This document shows positions 4,565-30,622 of a stretch of DNA of 33,685 nt, one piece after another; position 1 is the first letter of the stretch, and each line of letters starts with the position of its first letter. The translations under genes were made by a program, and so were the position numbers. The stretch covers positions 1-33,685 of the forward strand of contig JAUNDI010000002.1 in the NCBI GenBank assembly GCA_030526155.1, given 5' to 3'. This DNA comes from Bacteroidia bacterium. GTDB taxonomy: Bacteria > Bacteroidota > Bacteroidia > Bacteroidales > Marinilabiliaceae. Below the pieces are notes generated by a model, which ran no database searches, had not been told where the DNA came from, and worked only from the letters and a program-made list of their open reading frames with translations.

Positions 4565-4595
4565 TTTGAATTTGTCAGATTAAGTGGTATTTTTG
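4565..4595 (+). promoter_or_regulatory. sigma-ABfr-type promoter of the trp operon
   Basis: TTTG at 4565-4568, a 19-nt spacer, then TATTTTTG at 4588-4595: an exact match to both Bacteroidota promoter elements at the preferred spacing. The predicted start site near 4602 puts the leader peptide ATG about 23 nt into the transcript. The promoter lies immediately after the stop codon of the upstream receptor gene. Confidence 0.75.
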
Positions 4596-4624
4596 TATTC
4601 GTAAATAAGTCAATAAAGCAAAAT

Positions 4625-4684
4625 ATGAAGAATATGTCTCTAATATGGTGGCGTTGGCAACTTCCTTCCAGAGTACGGAGGTAA
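4625..4684 (+). CDS. trpL: trp operon leader peptide
   Basis: A 19-codon reading frame encodes MKNMSLIWWRWQLPSRVRR and ends with TAA at 4682-4684. Three of its codons at positions 8, 9 and 11 are TGG, the pattern expected of a tryptophan-sensing leader peptide. It lies between a strong promoter match (4565-4595) and a Rho-independent terminator (4722-4755) upstream of trpE. It is too short for routine gene calling. In the enteric mechanism, scarcity of charged tRNA-Trp stalls the ribosome on the Trp codons and prevents the terminator from forming. Here the last Trp codon (4655-4657) overlaps the 5' arm of the first competing hairpin (GGCAAC, 4656-4661), which fits that mechanism. There is no Shine-Dalgarno sequence, as is normal for this phylum. 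Confidence 0.85.
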   Translation: MKNMSLIWWRWQLPSRVRR

Positions 4685-4725
4685 GCGATAGCCTGTTGCC
4701 TATAGAGTAATAGAATACAACAAGC
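4656..4725 (+). promoter_or_regulatory. Competing hairpins of the trp attenuator
   Basis: Two mutually exclusive pairings precede the terminator. Segment 1:2 pairs GGCAAC (4656-4661) with GTTGCC (4695-4700). Segment 2:3, the antiterminator, pairs 4691-4698 (GCCTGTTG) with 4718-4725 (CAACAAGC), seven of eight bases matched, and can be extended by CTAT (4700-4703) with ATAG (4710-4713). Segment 3 runs into the first four bases of the terminator's 5' arm, so forming 2:3 would break the terminator. The pairings were found by eye and have not been energy-minimised. Confidence 0.7.
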
Positions 4726-4755
4726 CTTGTCGATAACTCCGACGAGGCTTTTTTT
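4722..4755 (+). terminator. trp attenuator terminator
   Basis: An 11-bp stem pairs AAGCCTTGTCG (4722-4732) with CGACGAGGCTT (4740-4750), with one G-U pair and a 7-nt loop, followed directly by T's through 4755. It lies upstream of trpE and downstream of the Trp-rich leader peptide, so it serves as the conditional terminator of the attenuator. Confidence 0.85.
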
Positions 4756-4801
4756 ATTTGTTGACTTAGGATATTAACACAGAATATAAATACAAAGAAA
4801 T

Positions 4802-6211
4802 ATGACACAGATTCACGCACATGTTACACAGGTTCCAGCACAGATATCAGATGTGATTACGCCTGTTTCGGCCTACTTGAAGCTACGTGATGTCTATCCC
4901 AACACCGCGCTACTCGAGAGTACAGATTACCACACATACGCATATGCTATGTCGTTTGTCTGCTTCGACCCTATATCAGAGTTTATAGTTGAGGGTAATA
5001 AGATGAAGATTTTGACAGACAATATTGTGACTACAGAAAAAGATATTACATCTGTAGGTGAGGCTGTCAAGGAGTTAGATAAGTATATATCCTCTTTCGA
5101 GGTAAAAAGTGATAGCCCAGAGGCACAGTTTAATGGCGTATTTGGTTATACTGGTTATGATGCCGTACAACATTTTGACTCTTTGAAATTACAAGACAAG
5201 TCGGATAAGCCATACGCAGTTCCAGATATTAGATATACAGCATACCGCAAGATATTAGCTTTCTCGCATTTTTCTCATAGAATGTTCCTTTTGGAGAATC
5301 TGAGAGCAGATGAGCAGTCGGATGCTGACCGTCTATTCGATTTCTTCCACAATCCAGTACTTTCGCAGTTTACATTTACCCCACTAAATGATGAGCAATC
5401 AAATGTAACAGACGAGGAGTACAAGAAGATGGTAACTAAAGGCAAGGAGCATTGCTATAGGGGTGATGTATTCCAAATCGTACTAAGCCGTCAGTTCTCT
5501 AGAGGCTTTGAGGGTGATGAGTTTAATGTCTATAGAGCTCTCCGCCATGTCAACCCTTCGCCATATATGTTCTTCTTTGATTATGGTACATACAAAATAT
5601 TTGGCTCTTCACCAGAGACAGAGTTGTTAATAAAGAAGGGTGTAGCTCAAATTAACCCTATAGCGGGAACATTTAAGCGCACGGGCGACGAGGAAAAGGA
5701 TAAGGAGTTGGCTGAACTCCTCAAAGTCGACCCTAAAGAGTCAGCAGAGCATATCATGCTAGTAGATTTGGCTCGTAACGATTTAAGCCGTCATTGTGAA
5801 AATGTCAAGGTTAATAATTTCAAAGAGATACAATTCTACTCTCATGTACTTCACATGGTGTCCAATGTAAGCGGTCAGCTTGTAGACGGAGCTACGACAG
5901 CTGAGTTGATGGCAGCAACATTCCCAGCAGGTACATTAAGCGGAGCTCCTAAGTATAAAGCCATGGAGTTGATTGATAGTATTGAGAACCAACCACGTGG
6001 TATATATGGCGGTTGCATTGGTATAATGCGTTTTGATGGCGATTTTGACCAAGCTATCATGATTCGTACATTCCTTTCCAAAGGCAATAGGCTCTATTAT
6101 CAAGCTGGTGCAGGAGTAGTGGCGAAGAGTGTAGAGGATAACGAACTTCAGGAGGTAAACAATAAATTAGGAGCTCTTACTAAGGCTCTCGAGATAGCAA
6201 AGGACTTTTAA
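4802..6211 (+). CDS. trpE: Anthranilate synthase component I
   Basis: TrpE converts chorismate plus ammonia to anthranilate, the first committed step of tryptophan synthesis, using ammonia supplied by TrpG. The 469-residue protein has the N-terminal regulatory motif LLES at 37-40, the site through which tryptophan inhibits TrpE allosterically, and a C-terminal chorismate-binding domain with PIAGTFKRTGDEEKD, LVDLARNDL, TFPAGTLSGAPK and YQAGAGVVAKS. The presence of LLES and the trpGDC neighbours distinguishes it from PabB. It is the first structural gene after the attenuator, so it is controlled both at transcription (leader peptide) and probably by feedback inhibition. The stop is 12 nt before the trpG ATG. 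Confidence 0.97.
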   Translation: MTQIHAHVTQVPAQISDVITPVSAYLKLRDVYPNTALLESTDYHTYAYAMSFVCFDPISEFIVEGNKMKILTDNIVTTEKDITSVGEAVKELDKYISSFEVKSDSPEAQFNGVFGYTGYDAVQHFDSLKLQDKSDKPYAVPDIRYTAYRKILAFSHFSHRMFLLENLRADEQSDADRLFDFFHNPVLSQFTFTPLNDEQSNVTDEEYKKMVTKGKEHCYRGDVFQIVLSRQFSRGFEGDEFNVYRALRHVNPSPYMFFFDYGTYKIFGSSPETELLIKKGVAQINPIAGTFKRTGDEEKDKELAELLKVDPKESAEHIMLVDLARNDLSRHCENVKVNNFKEIQFYSHVLHMVSNVSGQLVDGATTAELMAATFPAGTLSGAPKYKAMELIDSIENQPRGIYGGCIGIMRFDGDFDQAIMIRTFLSKGNRLYYQAGAGVVAKSVEDNELQEVNNKLGALTKALEIAKDF

Positions 6212-8643: not shown

Positions 8644-9162
8644 ATGAAAGAGAACGATTCAAGAGAGTTATTCAGTGCTAAGAATCAGTTGGAGGATGCT
8701 CCTATTATTCTTTGTGATAGTTTTAAGACGCCAGAGAATATAGGGAGCATTGTCCGTTTGGCTGCCAATGTAGGTTGTACCAAGGTAATAAGCATAGGCG
8801 GAGGAACATATAAGCCATGGCGTGTTAAGAGAACAGCGTGTATGGCTATCGACTATGTGGAGTTGGTAGAGTTGGAAACAGAGGATTTCCTTAACCGTAT
8901 GTCAGAGCTTATTCCAGAGGGATATGTGATGACGGCAGTAGAGACAAGTCCGACGGCTACAAATATCTACAAAACATCTCTACCTCGTAAGGCTGTATTG
9001 GTATTAGGAAGCGAGATAAACGGAGTCTGTGAAGATGTCCTAAGATTATGCCCAGTACAAGTATATATACCTATGACGGGTCCTGCTACCTCTATGAATG
9101 TAGCTACGGCTGCTTCGGTGGCTATCTTTGAGTGGCAAAGACAGGCGTTGTACTCTGAGTAG
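8644..9162 (+). CDS. SpoU-family RNA 2'-O-methyltransferase
   Basis: The 172-residue protein is a compact SPOUT (trefoil-knot) methyltransferase that would transfer a methyl group from SAM to a ribose 2'-OH of tRNA or rRNA. All three family motifs are visible: motif 1 TPENIGSIVRLAANVG, motif 2 VLVLGSEINGV and motif 3 YIPMTGPATSMNVATAASVAIFEW. The size resembles single-domain members such as TrmL, but the sequence does not allow a confident target. It is the last gene of the trp transcription unit, 15 nt after trpC with no promoter match between, and it converges on the next gene with only 7 nt separating the stops and no terminator in the gap. Confidence 0.9.
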   Translation: MKENDSRELFSAKNQLEDAPIILCDSFKTPENIGSIVRLAANVGCTKVISIGGGTYKPWRVKRTACMAIDYVELVELETEDFLNRMSELIPEGYVMTAVETSPTATNIYKTSLPRKAVLVLGSEINGVCEDVLRLCPVQVYIPMTGPATSMNVATAASVAIFEWQRQALYSE

Positions 9163-27390: not shown

Positions 27391-28071
27391 ATGACTGATA
27401 GCGAACTAATCGAAAAACTAAGACCATTTCTGACAGAGAAAAGAATGGAGACTCTCGAGTCTATGCTCGCAAAGCGTACAAAACACATGACCGTAGTTCT
27501 CGAAAATATCTTCCATTCTCATAACGCCTCTGCCGTAATGCGTACTTGCGAGTGCTTCGGCATCCAAGATCTTCACATAATTGAGAATAACAATAATTTC
27601 CAAGTGCACCCAGATATAGTGCGCGGCGCTACTAAGTGGCTGAATATTAATCGTTATTGCAACTCTACCGATAATACCCCCCTATGTATAGATGCCCTTA
27701 AGCGCGAGGGCTATCGTATAGTTGTTACCTCTCCTCATGGTGAGGGCGTAACAAAACTAGAGGATTTCGATGTATCCAAGGGTAAATTCGCTATCATGAT
27801 GGGTAGCGAGAAGGTGGGTATATCAGATTACGCTTGGGAGCATGCCGATGAGCGTCTCACTATCCCTATGTGTGGTTTTACAGAGAGCCTTAATATCTCC
27901 GTATCTACAGCTATTATCATACACACCCTCCGTGCAAAGATGGATGCCGCCGGAATCGACCCCGCCTTCAGCGATGAGGAGCGTCGTTCTACTCTCCTCC
28001 ATTGGATGGTAGAGAGCATTAGTAGCGGTAAGGAGGTACTTCGTCGTATTCTTGAGGATAATCTAGACTAA
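27391..28071 (+). CDS. trmH: TrmH-family RNA 2'-O-methyltransferase
   Basis: This SPOUT methyltransferase uses SAM to methylate a ribose 2'-OH. The 226 residues show an N-terminal extension (MTDSELIEKLRPFLTEKRME) like TrmH, motif 1 FHSHNASAVMRTCECFG, VHPDIVRGATKWLNI, motif 2 IMMGSEKVGIS and motif 3 IPMCGFTESLNISVSTAIIIHTL. The layout and length agree with tRNA (Gm18) methyltransferase TrmH, which modifies G18 in the D-loop; other tRNA targets are possible. Its stop codon overlaps the menF start by one base (TAATG), so it is translationally linked to the menaquinone genes although it has no direct role in that pathway. Confidence 0.92.
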   Translation: MTDSELIEKLRPFLTEKRMETLESMLAKRTKHMTVVLENIFHSHNASAVMRTCECFGIQDLHIIENNNNFQVHPDIVRGATKWLNINRYCNSTDNTPLCIDALKREGYRIVVTSPHGEGVTKLEDFDVSKGKFAIMMGSEKVGISDYAWEHADERLTIPMCGFTESLNISVSTAIIIHTLRAKMDAAGIDPAFSDEERRSTLLHWMVESISSGKEVLRRILEDNLD

Positions 28072-29021
28072 TGGACTATCAACAGATAGTAGATAGGATT
28101 GATGGACTAACCGCCCCTTTCGCCGTTATGCGCGAACCTGATACTGATGTGGTACTATGGTTCGAAGGGGACTCGTATTCCAATTTTATCATGCACCCCT
28201 ATTCCGAGGAGGCTGTCGGCCGTCGCCCTCTTGAGGCTACATCTCAAACCGATTACCAACAGTCGTTCCAAGAGGTTAAGAATTACCTCAACGAGGGTGT
28301 AGTAGATAAGGTGGTCTTGTCGCGTGTAGTCTCTCATGAGGGGATTAATAGCCATTCTCTCGGTACTCTCTTCGCCCACGCTTGCCAACTATATCCTCAC
28401 CAAATGATTTATCTCTGGGTTAATGGTAATAATGTTTGGTTGGGCTGTACCCCAGAGTTGCTATTGTCTTATAATGCTAATACCTCTGAGGGTCAAACTA
28501 TGGCTTTAGCAGGTACGCGCCCTGCTGTGGGGTCTGACGTTAAGTGGGATAGCAAAAATATACGCGAACAGGCAGTGGTAAGTAGCTGGATTGTTAGTCA
28601 GCTGAAAAACGAGGGCATAGATGTCCGTATGGGTGAGGTGTATACTACTCAGGCCGGCGGCTTGGAACATCTGCGTACCGATATCTCTATGCAAATCCCC
28701 GATGCCGTCGTGGCAGAGAAGGTGCTCAATATTCTCCATCCTACACCTGCCGTATGTGGTCAACCTCGTGCTAAGGCTATGGATATCATCTCTAGGGTAG
28801 AGAAGCACGACCGTGAGTTCTATTCTGGTTTCGTAGGATATCATAATGATAATGGTATGAGAATATATGTCAACTTGCGTTGCGCAGCACTGGATATTAT
28901 GGCCAATCGTGCTTTTATCTTCGTAGGTGGTGGCATAATGCCCGATTCCGTATGCGAAACAGAGTTCCAAGAGACTGAATATAAGGCTCAAACCATAAAA
29001 CGTGTTCTAAAATGCTCATAA
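28071..29021 (+). CDS. menF: Isochorismate synthase
   Basis: MenF converts chorismate to isochorismate, the entry step of menaquinone synthesis. The 316-residue protein is a short form, containing mainly the chorismate-binding domain: VVDKVVLSRVV, WLGCTPELLLS, MALAGTRPA, HLRTDISMQI, HPTPAVCGQPRAKAMDII, YSGFVGYHNDNGMRIYVNLR and IFVGGGIMPDS. Immediate coupling to menD (10-nt overlap) distinguishes it from trpE, pabB and salicylate-forming homologues. A start at 28071 overlaps the trmH stop. Short isochorismate synthases are usual in Bacteroidota. Confidence 0.94.
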   Translation: MDYQQIVDRIDGLTAPFAVMREPDTDVVLWFEGDSYSNFIMHPYSEEAVGRRPLEATSQTDYQQSFQEVKNYLNEGVVDKVVLSRVVSHEGINSHSLGTLFAHACQLYPHQMIYLWVNGNNVWLGCTPELLLSYNANTSEGQTMALAGTRPAVGSDVKWDSKNIREQAVVSSWIVSQLKNEGIDVRMGEVYTTQAGGLEHLRTDISMQIPDAVVAEKVLNILHPTPAVCGQPRAKAMDIISRVEKHDREFYSGFVGYHNDNGMRIYVNLRCAALDIMANRAFIFVGGGIMPDSVCETEFQETEYKAQTIKRVLKCS

Positions 29022-30622
29022 CATCCCTCCTCCATAGGTTCGGTATACATCACGTAGTGGTATGCCCTGGCTCTCGTAACGCACCTCTCGTAGATGCTTT
29101 TGCTCGATGCGCTCCTACATATAGTGTTCACCCTGTAACAGATGAGCGTAGCGCTGGCTTCGTAGCTATAGGTCTTGCTGAGTCTCTCGACGCCCCAGTG
29201 GCAGTATGCGTTACTAGTGGTACAGCCGTGGCTAACCTTTATCCTGCTGTCATCGAGGCTTATCATCGTAATATCCCTCTGGTGGTAATATCTGCAGATA
29301 GACCTATGGAGTGGATAGATCAGATGGATGGGCAGACTATGTCTCAGCCCGGTGCTTATGTGCGTTATGCTGAGTATTGTGATATCTTGCCTGAAAATGA
29401 TGAATCTGAGCGTCTTTGGTATAACAATCGTGAGCTCAATCGTATTCTTAATTATTCTACTCATTCTCATAAGCCATGTCATATCAATATTCAACTGAGA
29501 GAACCTTTGTTTAATTTCGAGAATACAGAGGATTTAATAGATAATAATGTGCGAATGGTCTCGAGTACTCCCTTGGTGCTCCCGCATACCTCGCTCTATG
29601 CAGACGCTATGCTCGCAGAGACCATAAAATCTAAATGGCAGAATTCCGAAAGAATAATGATTATAGTGGGCCAGCATAAGCCCGACCCTCATTTCGCCTC
29701 TCTCCTCGCTCGTATCAAGGAGAACTCTAATGCTGTTATCCTTGCGGAGTCTCTCTCTAATCTGTCTTCTGATATCGTTTCTGGTTCATACAATATTACC
29801 CCTAATGACGATACTATTGCTCCCGATCTTCTCTTGTATCTTGGTGGACACATCGTTAATAAGGATCTTAAACTATGGCTTCGTAAGCAGCCTATCCCTA
29901 ATGTATGGCAGTTGGCTCTCCATAACTATCGCGAGATGCCTGATCTTTTCCAACAGCTCTCGCTACAAATATATGCGGATTCTGATGTGCAACTCTTAGA
30001 GGCTCTGTCTACCTTGGTCCCTAGCTCTTCTGATGCTAATTTTGTCAACTCTTGGCAAAAACGTACATACGCTGCTACGCCTATTAAGCCTCAACAGCTA
30101 ATAGTGAATGAGTTTTTGTCTAACGCCGGCTTGAAGAATGCCAACCTAGTCTTGGCTAATAGCTCTTCTATTCGCTATGCCCAGAAATGCACTGGTTTTA
30201 ATGCTGCTGATTGTGCTTATGTTACTTGTAATCGTGGCGTAAATGGTATCGAGGGTACCATCTCTCAGGCTGTGGGTGTGGCTTTGGCTAATCCTGATAG
30301 ACTGACGGTCTGCCTCACTGGCGACCTTAGTTTCTTCTACGACCATAATGCTCTCTGGAATGTCAATCTGCCATCCAACTTGCGTATCTTACTGATAAAT
30401 GATGGGGGAGGCGAGATTTTTAAGGGTCTTAAGGGGCTCGAGCTATCTCCTGTGCGCGACTCCCTTGTTATGGCTAGCCATAATACCTCAGCCGAAGGGT
30501 GGTGCCGTGATTGTCGTGTCGACTATCTCGCATCTCATCTCAATGATTCTCAGCCTTCTATTGAGTGGCTGTTAGCTCCATCTGATAGGGCAAGGGTGCT
30601 AGAGTTTACCCTATGGGTATAA
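29012..30622 (+). CDS. menD: 2-succinyl-5-enolpyruvyl-6-hydroxy-3-cyclohexene-1-carboxylate synthase
   Basis: MenD is a thiamine-diphosphate enzyme that adds decarboxylated 2-oxoglutarate to isochorismate, the first committed step to menaquinone. The 536 residues show the N-terminal pyrimidine-binding domain (VVCPGSRNAPLVDAF near 17-31; RSAGFVAIGLAES; CVTSGTAVANLYPAVIEA), a central domain, and the C-terminal diphosphate-binding domain with RGVNGIEGTISQAVG and the Mg-TPP motif GDLSFFYDHNALW from residue 437. The start lies inside menF (overlap of 10 nt). Downstream men genes are not adjacent: the next gene is a ketoacyl synthase with a 132-nt gap. A 6-bp hairpin over the stop codon (ATGGGT 30613-30618 with ACCCAT 30625-30630) followed by TTTGCGTTTT may terminate the operon. 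Confidence 0.95.
   Translation: MLITSLLHRFGIHHVVVCPGSRNAPLVDAFARCAPTYSVHPVTDERSAGFVAIGLAESLDAPVAVCVTSGTAVANLYPAVIEAYHRNIPLVVISADRPMEWIDQMDGQTMSQPGAYVRYAEYCDILPENDESERLWYNNRELNRILNYSTHSHKPCHINIQLREPLFNFENTEDLIDNNVRMVSSTPLVLPHTSLYADAMLAETIKSKWQNSERIMIIVGQHKPDPHFASLLARIKENSNAVILAESLSNLSSDIVSGSYNITPNDDTIAPDLLLYLGGHIVNKDLKLWLRKQPIPNVWQLALHNYREMPDLFQQLSLQIYADSDVQLLEALSTLVPSSSDANFVNSWQKRTYAATPIKPQQLIVNEFLSNAGLKNANLVLANSSSIRYAQKCTGFNAADCAYVTCNRGVNGIEGTISQAVGVALANPDRLTVCLTGDLSFFYDHNALWNVNLPSNLRILLINDGGGEIFKGLKGLELSPVRDSLVMASHNTSAEGWCRDCRVDYLASHLNDSQPSIEWLLAPSDRARVLEFTLWV

Follow-up and report, generated by a model that had tools for sequence, protein, structure and literature searches.

A probable ribosome-mediated trp attenuator of Bacteroidota with an antiterminator that appears to contact the tip of the terminator

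The window (the whole stretch of 33,685 nucleotides that was analysed) contains a trp gene cluster, which is preceded by a promoter, a short open reading frame and an intrinsic terminator. From position 4802 onward, Pfam analysis revealed the order Anth_synt_I_N plus Chorismate_bind, then GATase, Glycos_transf_3 and IGPS. The following elements were assigned:

4565 to 4595, forward strand: promoter of the Bacteroidetes sigma-A type (TTTG-N19-TAttTTTG), an exact match to TTTG-N19-TATTTTTG from 4565
4625 to 4684, forward strand: leader peptide ORF of 19 codons (MKNMSLIWWRWQLPSRVRR*), with TGG at codons 8, 9 and 11 (4646-4651, 4655-4657)
4660 to 4665, forward strand: protector strand P (ACUUCC), paired with 4677-4682 in the fold predicted without a ribosome
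4676 to 4680, forward strand: antiterminator element U (CGGAG), shortly 5′ of the leader stop codon, paired with 4737-4741 in folds of the nascent RNA
4686 to 4698, forward strand: inner antiterminator strand (CGAUAGC, UGUUG), containing segment 2 of the first-pass annotation, paired with 4718-4732 in nascent folds
4718 to 4732, forward strand: CAACA and the terminator 5′ arm (4722-4732), holding segment 3 of the first-pass annotation, by folding
4733 to 4741, forward strand: terminator apex, comprising the 7-nt loop (4733-4739) and the first bases of the 3′ arm, with the U target CUCCG at 4737-4741, by folding and by comparison of U with the apex
4722 to 4755, forward strand: intrinsic terminator with an 11-bp stem (4722-4732/4740-4750) and a T-run (4749-4755), by folding
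4802 to 6211, forward strand: trpE, by Pfam, with which the controlled operon trpE-G-D-C begins; the operon extends to 8628

The promoter, the leader ORF with its three Trp codons and the terminator (4722-4750) with its T-tract had already been described in a first-pass annotation of this DNA, and all of them were found where it had placed them. The folding it had recommended, carried out with the RNA from 4600 to 4770, yielded the terminator and was 4.2 standard deviations better than that of shuffled sequences. The pattern TTG-N17-23-TANNTTTG was detected in the 130 nt preceding the ATG in 49 of 165 leaders, compared to 4 of 141 control stretches. Directly after trpC, a gene for an RNA methylase of the SpoU family (Pfam) is located at window 8644-9162; no trpF, trpB or trpA family was present among the 20 ORFs of the window scanned with Pfam. 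The same window harbors another chorismate-binding gene and, after it, a gene for a TPP enzyme (28071-30622, Pfam), which we take to be, perhaps, the menaquinone genes menF and menD.

As in trp attenuators in general, a short ORF with consecutive Trp codons lies 5′ of the trp genes and an intrinsic terminator separates this leader from the first gene. A leader ORF with consecutive Trp codons (WW leader) preceded trpE at 172 of 205 loci of the phylum, and a terminator within the next 100 nt was found at 160 of the 205; conserved consecutive Trp codons were among the features that the first-pass annotation had proposed to look for. By contrast, only one of 81 control upstream regions of the same phylum (30 of hisG, 16 of ilvD, 19 of 30 of homoserine dehydrogenase, 16 of pheA) contained a WW leader and none a WW leader with a terminator. 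From 211 trpE upstream regions, these 205 were left after removal of three duplicates, of two loci from outside Bacteroidota and of one locus with 56 nt upstream; they still include the duplicate pair L006/L051. No WW leader with terminator was detected in 45 of the 205 regions. Judged from the sequence, ribosome-mediated attenuation of trp is the very probable function of window 4565-4755, since the arrangement occurs before trpE in 160 of 205 cases and in none of the controls.

With a slightly wider Trp pattern, leader and terminator were present at 44 of 72 loci from the window's order, at 54 of 60 from its class or phylum and at seven of 10 from named contigs, two of which are non-Bacteroidota. 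In one wider search, 60 upstream regions were read from 211 genomes with trpE, 55 of them from the class or order and five from beyond; G043 and G217 were left out, having too little upstream DNA. Leader peptides mostly comprise 16 to 32 residues with two to four Trp. Of 208 loci, 41 had no leader-plus-terminator call and were dropped from the pairing tests, although several of these carry a leader with a W-run whose terminator was missed by the finder (e.g. L025, L027, L106, L123, L197 and L223). The pairing set fell from 174 rows to 168 by filters and to 165 without duplicates, a few of which may be chance ORFs. At five loci (L008, L075, L083, L095 and L181), two tandem Trp leader ORFs precede trpE, each with its own terminator, an arrangement that suggests double attenuation.

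The first-pass annotation had noted that ribosome-coupled attenuation is best described in Proteobacteria and some Actinobacteria. The attenuator is not the first for its phylum, as a trp leader of Bacteroidetes is already recorded in Rfam as RF01692 'Bacteroid-trp' (Weinberg et al. 2010, PMC2864571, as far as the accessible part of that work goes). Like the element in the window, this family of trp leaders precedes trp genes of Bacteroidetes, with L101 and L113 as matches before trpE, and is provided with consecutive Trp codons; its consensus hairpin spans the Trp codons and the region of stop codon and linker. What separates it from the elements described here is its end at ...GGCUUGUC, the 5′ arm of the terminator, so that the model holds no terminator loop, 3′ arm or lid (the U:apex pairing treated below). 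Of 118 genomes of the phylum searched under stricter filters, RF01692 found a match in 10, which all belong to one family; eight of these matches exceeded the cut-off. The control genome of Bacteroides ihuae was matched as well. On the window the model reached 24 bits, below the gathering cut-off of 49 bits, and the window's own genome had no match. Among 18 hand-chosen loci, two reached gathering, L101 with 88.5 and L113 with 67.4 bits, and both of these carry the lid GUCGUGA:UCACGAC. In the window's family, leaders with a run of Trp codons plus a terminator occur in 62 of 66 trpE upstream regions, few such leaders being found by RF01692. An Rfam scan of the window gave no family at its cut-off; weak matches (PyrR, FsrA and others) were far below theirs.

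The accessible text of one paper reports strong clues that amino-acid operons of F. psychrophilum are subject to attenuation by leader peptides (PMC9723704), and that of another speaks of sORFs in B. thetaiotaomicron that bring leader peptides to mind (PMC7366714). A 2010 survey by Lopatovskaya et al., which we know through its citation in PMC4833913, may describe Bacteroidota cases. A bench-tested attenuator of Bacteroidota was not met in the literature searched.

The first-pass annotation had assigned to the leader the E. coli trp logic, with a 1:2 helix, a competing 2:3 helix and the terminator as 3:4. Complementarity for the 1:2 helix exists (GGCAAC at 4656-4661, GTTGCC at 4695-4700), and the helix can be formed in the close relatives L003-L005, with one G-U pair in L003. 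It was, however, absent from all minimum-energy folds made and cannot be formed in the next relative L019, and it was rejected as a working element on these grounds. In the fold of the window without a ribosome, the helix 4660-4665/4677-4682 took its place. The 2:3 helix (4691-4698, GCCTGTTG; 4718-4725, CAACAAGC) is present with its one mismatch. Its sequences are identical in L003-L005, so that the covariation expected by the first-pass annotation does not appear in this helix; it was found across the phylum in another pairing, that of the lid.

By eye, the region around the leader stop codon was seen to be complementary to the terminator loop, while the letters varied: CGGAG:CUCCG, GUCGUGA:UCACGAC, ACCGAGAGUU:AACUCUCGGU and UUGUGUUAAGC:GCUUAACACAA. 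For statistics, U was defined independently of pairing as the stretch 10 to 36 nt after the last Trp codon, and the apex as the loop plus the first three bases of the 3′ arm. Across 165 leaders, the mean score of U with the apex was 14.41, compared to 9.28 for mononucleotide shuffles (z=34) and 10.34 for dinucleotide shuffles (z=27.7). Scores of at least 14 were reached in 98 of the 165 rows, where 6.9 (mononucleotide) or 15.8 (dinucleotide) were expected. When U was swapped between genera or families, the score fell from 14.41 with the own apex to 9.90 with foreign ones (z=26.5); a first swap test that did not separate relatives had given a weaker contrast (16.3 versus 13.0) and was replaced by the between-group swaps. 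Sampling of one leader per group in five draws gave z=17.7-20.3 for the apex and z=0.6-1.7 for the 5′ arm.

Direct pairing of U with the 5′ arm was absent or marginal across the 165 leaders (z=2.0 with mononucleotide shuffles, -0.6 with dinucleotide shuffles, 0.7 with the between-group swap); hence, a stop-proximal element acting directly on the terminator 5′ arm, as in the E. coli type, was not found. Pairing with the whole 3′ arm, an early idea, was rejected (z=1.5, mononucleotide shuffles, 165 leaders), the target being the loop and about three bases. In the rows, the lid extended to the first three bases of the 3′ arm in 87, 82 and 57 cases, compared to 25 at the last base of the 5′ arm. 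In an earlier test, which used a wider loop definition and shuffled the stop region by dinucleotides, the loop reached z=21.8 together with four 3′-arm bases and z=18.3 together with four 5′-arm bases, either arm alone being near 0 and the pre-ATG control at 2.3. With the final U window, control pairings with pre-ATG, linker and coding stretches gave z between -3.1 and 0 (pre-ATG 0.0). Among rows selected because they pair, several lid positions showed each of the four Watson-Crick types; a MAFFT alignment displaces U by one or two bases between clades. By thresholds of our own choice (12 and 14), 125 of the 165 leaders, in 54 of 66 groups, belong to the apex class and 12, in six groups, to the 5′-arm class, while 28 belong to neither. 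In the window's genus, 13 leaders were classed, 11 as apex and two as neither. Thus, to judge from these comparisons, the best-supported antiterminator contact across the phylum looks to be that of the stop-codon region with the terminator loop and the first 3′-arm bases.

Support for the lid is comparative: in the window alone, the lid of 5 bp is not significant (p=0.08). This value, the choice of the register by best score and the lid statistics, which are not tree-based, would agree with a signal created by common descent or by the motif finder. Such an artefact is nevertheless extremely unlikely, as the null distributions use the identical best-score choice, and the between-group swaps, the one-per-group sampling, the control pairings, E. 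coli trpL and the phe leaders all behave as expected.

The position of U, too, is consistent with a ribosome acting on it. In 125 of 128 leaders scoring at least 12, U starts 15 to 23 nt after the last Trp codon (search range 10 to 36), and in 105 of 105 rows no more than about 15 nt separate it from the stop codon, these rows coming from a search limited to about -12 to +12 of the stop. A ribosome covers about 10 to 13 nt beyond its A site. We infer that U would stay accessible during a stall at the Trp codons but be masked by a ribosome that has arrived at the stop codon. Pairing of P with U was detectable over 105 leaders (z=5.6), though only 11 rows were individually significant (p<0.05); the RF01692 consensus likewise places a hairpin there.

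Folding of the RNA in the course of its synthesis is consistent with a mutually exclusive antiterminator that would be exposed by a stall at the Trp codons. When the nascent RNA left free by a stalled ribosome was folded as far as the third base of the 3′ arm, 140 of 165 minimum-energy folds contained four or more U:apex pairs, compared to 50.8 of 165 expected from shuffled U. When the RNA to 12 nt past the stop codon was left out, the terminator was contained in the minimum-energy fold of all 165 leaders. In the best fold of the window RNA from 4662-4671 to 4741, the helix 4676-4680:4737-4741 closes 4686-4690:4728-4732, 4691-4692:4724-4725 and 4694-4698:4718-4722. The 2:3 helix of the first-pass annotation coincides with the last two of these and is therefore regarded as the inner part of the antiterminator, not as the sole switch. 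In the 125 apex-type leaders, engagement of the terminator 5′ arm inside the lid amounted to 0.596, compared to 0.484 with the linker shuffled. Once the window RNA contains the whole 3′ arm, the terminator is the best fold even without the stretch of the stalled ribosome, and the antiterminator fold is weaker by 3.6 kcal/mol in the window and by 7.2 in the median of the 125 leaders. Since the complete terminator is energetically favored, the antiterminator would have to win kinetically, by forming first.

In our view, the leader region is quite likely, and best, explained as a ribosome-mediated transcription attenuator of the trp operon with a lid antiterminator; leader translation, ribosome stalling, timing, read-through and the direction of control are envisaged as follows. 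With ample Trp-tRNA, a ribosome at the leader stop codon (4682) would cover U (4676-4680), which would allow the terminator (4722-4755) to form and transcription to end. With scarce Trp-tRNA, the ribosome would stall at codons 8 to 11 and mask P (4660-4665), so that U would stay free and could pair with the terminator loop and the first 3′-arm bases (4737-4741) as they emerge. The resulting lid would close over the terminator 5′ arm, which would pair inside it (4686-4698 with 4718-4732), and the polymerase would read through. It might also be imagined that U binds to the loop of an intact terminator, as a pseudoknot or a loop-linear contact, and tunes the hairpin rather than replacing it. The target consists mostly of the loop and about three 3′-arm bases, and the lower stem could thus coexist with the pairing sterically. 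This is very unlikely, however, as the lid uses the first 3′-arm bases in many rows and competes with the top of the stem there; moreover, expression would have to rise with U exposed, and U pairing should therefore oppose termination.

In E. coli trpL, the position of the ribosome serves as the sensor, and a short leader peptide with tandem Trp codons is combined with a terminator and an alternative antiterminator. The window shares the tandem-Trp leader peptide, the terminator and the alternative antiterminator with this system. On the other hand, with the terminator arms of E. coli trpL placed manually and U taken to be everything between 10 nt past the Trp codons and the stem, this leader scored 15 with the 5′ arm and 7.5 with the apex, whereas the trp leaders of Bacteroidota favor the loop and first 3′-arm bases. 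Because the 2:3 helix lies further downstream in the window, the latter would work like the E. coli subtype without belonging to it. What the first-pass annotation said about ribosome-coupled attenuation is thus strongly supported by the comparison, but its simple switch of 2:3 against 3:4 is not.

Leaders before pheA behaved differently from those before trpE. Thirteen candidates for Phe-rich leaders followed by a terminator (L333-L347; MATNRFYFSNNFYFFFSRS is one of the peptides) were seen in 12 of 16 pheA upstream regions read (16 of 79 genomes; the 30 automatically given loci were not among them). Like the trp leaders, they combine a terminator with a leader peptide in which the amino acid made by the pathway is abundant. 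By contrast, 10 of the 13 revealed pairing with the 5′ arm (p<0.05) and none pairing with the apex, so that the lid is not general to the attenuators of the phylum. The ilv leaders gave pairing with the 5′ arm in one of two (p<0.05). The scoring recovers the classic type where it exists; among the operons examined, the apex lid hence belongs chiefly to trp. For the actinobacterial trp attenuators, which likewise combine a UGG-repeat leader peptide with a terminator, antiterminator and terminator have been described as having complementary triples (gGCC-rGCy-GGCC) in common, and the accessible part of the paper (PMC1262725) mentions no loop-directed element for trp.

An attenuator of the plain E. 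coli type, in which segment 2 (4691-4698) pairs solely with the 5′ arm (segment 3) and the match of U to the loop is incidental, has to be weighed against these data. It would account for the 2:3 complementarity, which is real and unchanged in L003-L005, for inner pairing of the 5′ arm above the level of the linker shuffles, and for the 5′-arm pairing of the phe leaders and one ilv leader. But it is unlikely in view of the 165 trp leaders, in which U matched the apex with z=26-34 and the 5′ arm directly with z=-0.6 to 2.0, and of L019, from which CAACAAG is missing. Returning to the lid, we lean, with reserve, towards a phylum-wide subclass of attenuators, in which the trp lid would cap the apical loop of the terminator, block nucleation of the hairpin and trap the 5′ arm, while phe would keep the classic 5′-arm switch and the contact site would have moved between loop and arm in evolution.

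Bacteroidota are dominant in many guts and largely do without Shine-Dalgarno initiation. While the kind of attenuator is already known, the place where the antiterminator grips the terminator is likely to be new, as far as sequence comparison can tell. The contact appears to be made with the tip of the terminator and not with its arm as in the textbook switch of E. coli, and this difference leads to a simple testable prediction for paired changes of U and loop. A loop-directed antiterminator was not found described in the literature searched, mostly open-access papers.

Some minor observations concern other operons. Before the gene for homoserine dehydrogenase, no leader was detected at 30 loci, several of which had little upstream DNA (gene start near the end of the 1500-base flank). 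In the window's own genome, a candidate branched-chain leader (MYNVRNIRVVVLLLNLIVLVVQG) followed by a terminator precedes ilvD (L256, G000:C75). Nine his leaders were obtained from 30 loci; three revealed pairing with the apex and four with the 5′ arm (p<0.05), L232 being counted in both. One His leader located before hisG (MNRTHRHHHHVHASPKGRW, L226) can form 9 bp between its stop region and the terminator loop (p=0.015) and is of the apex type outside trp.
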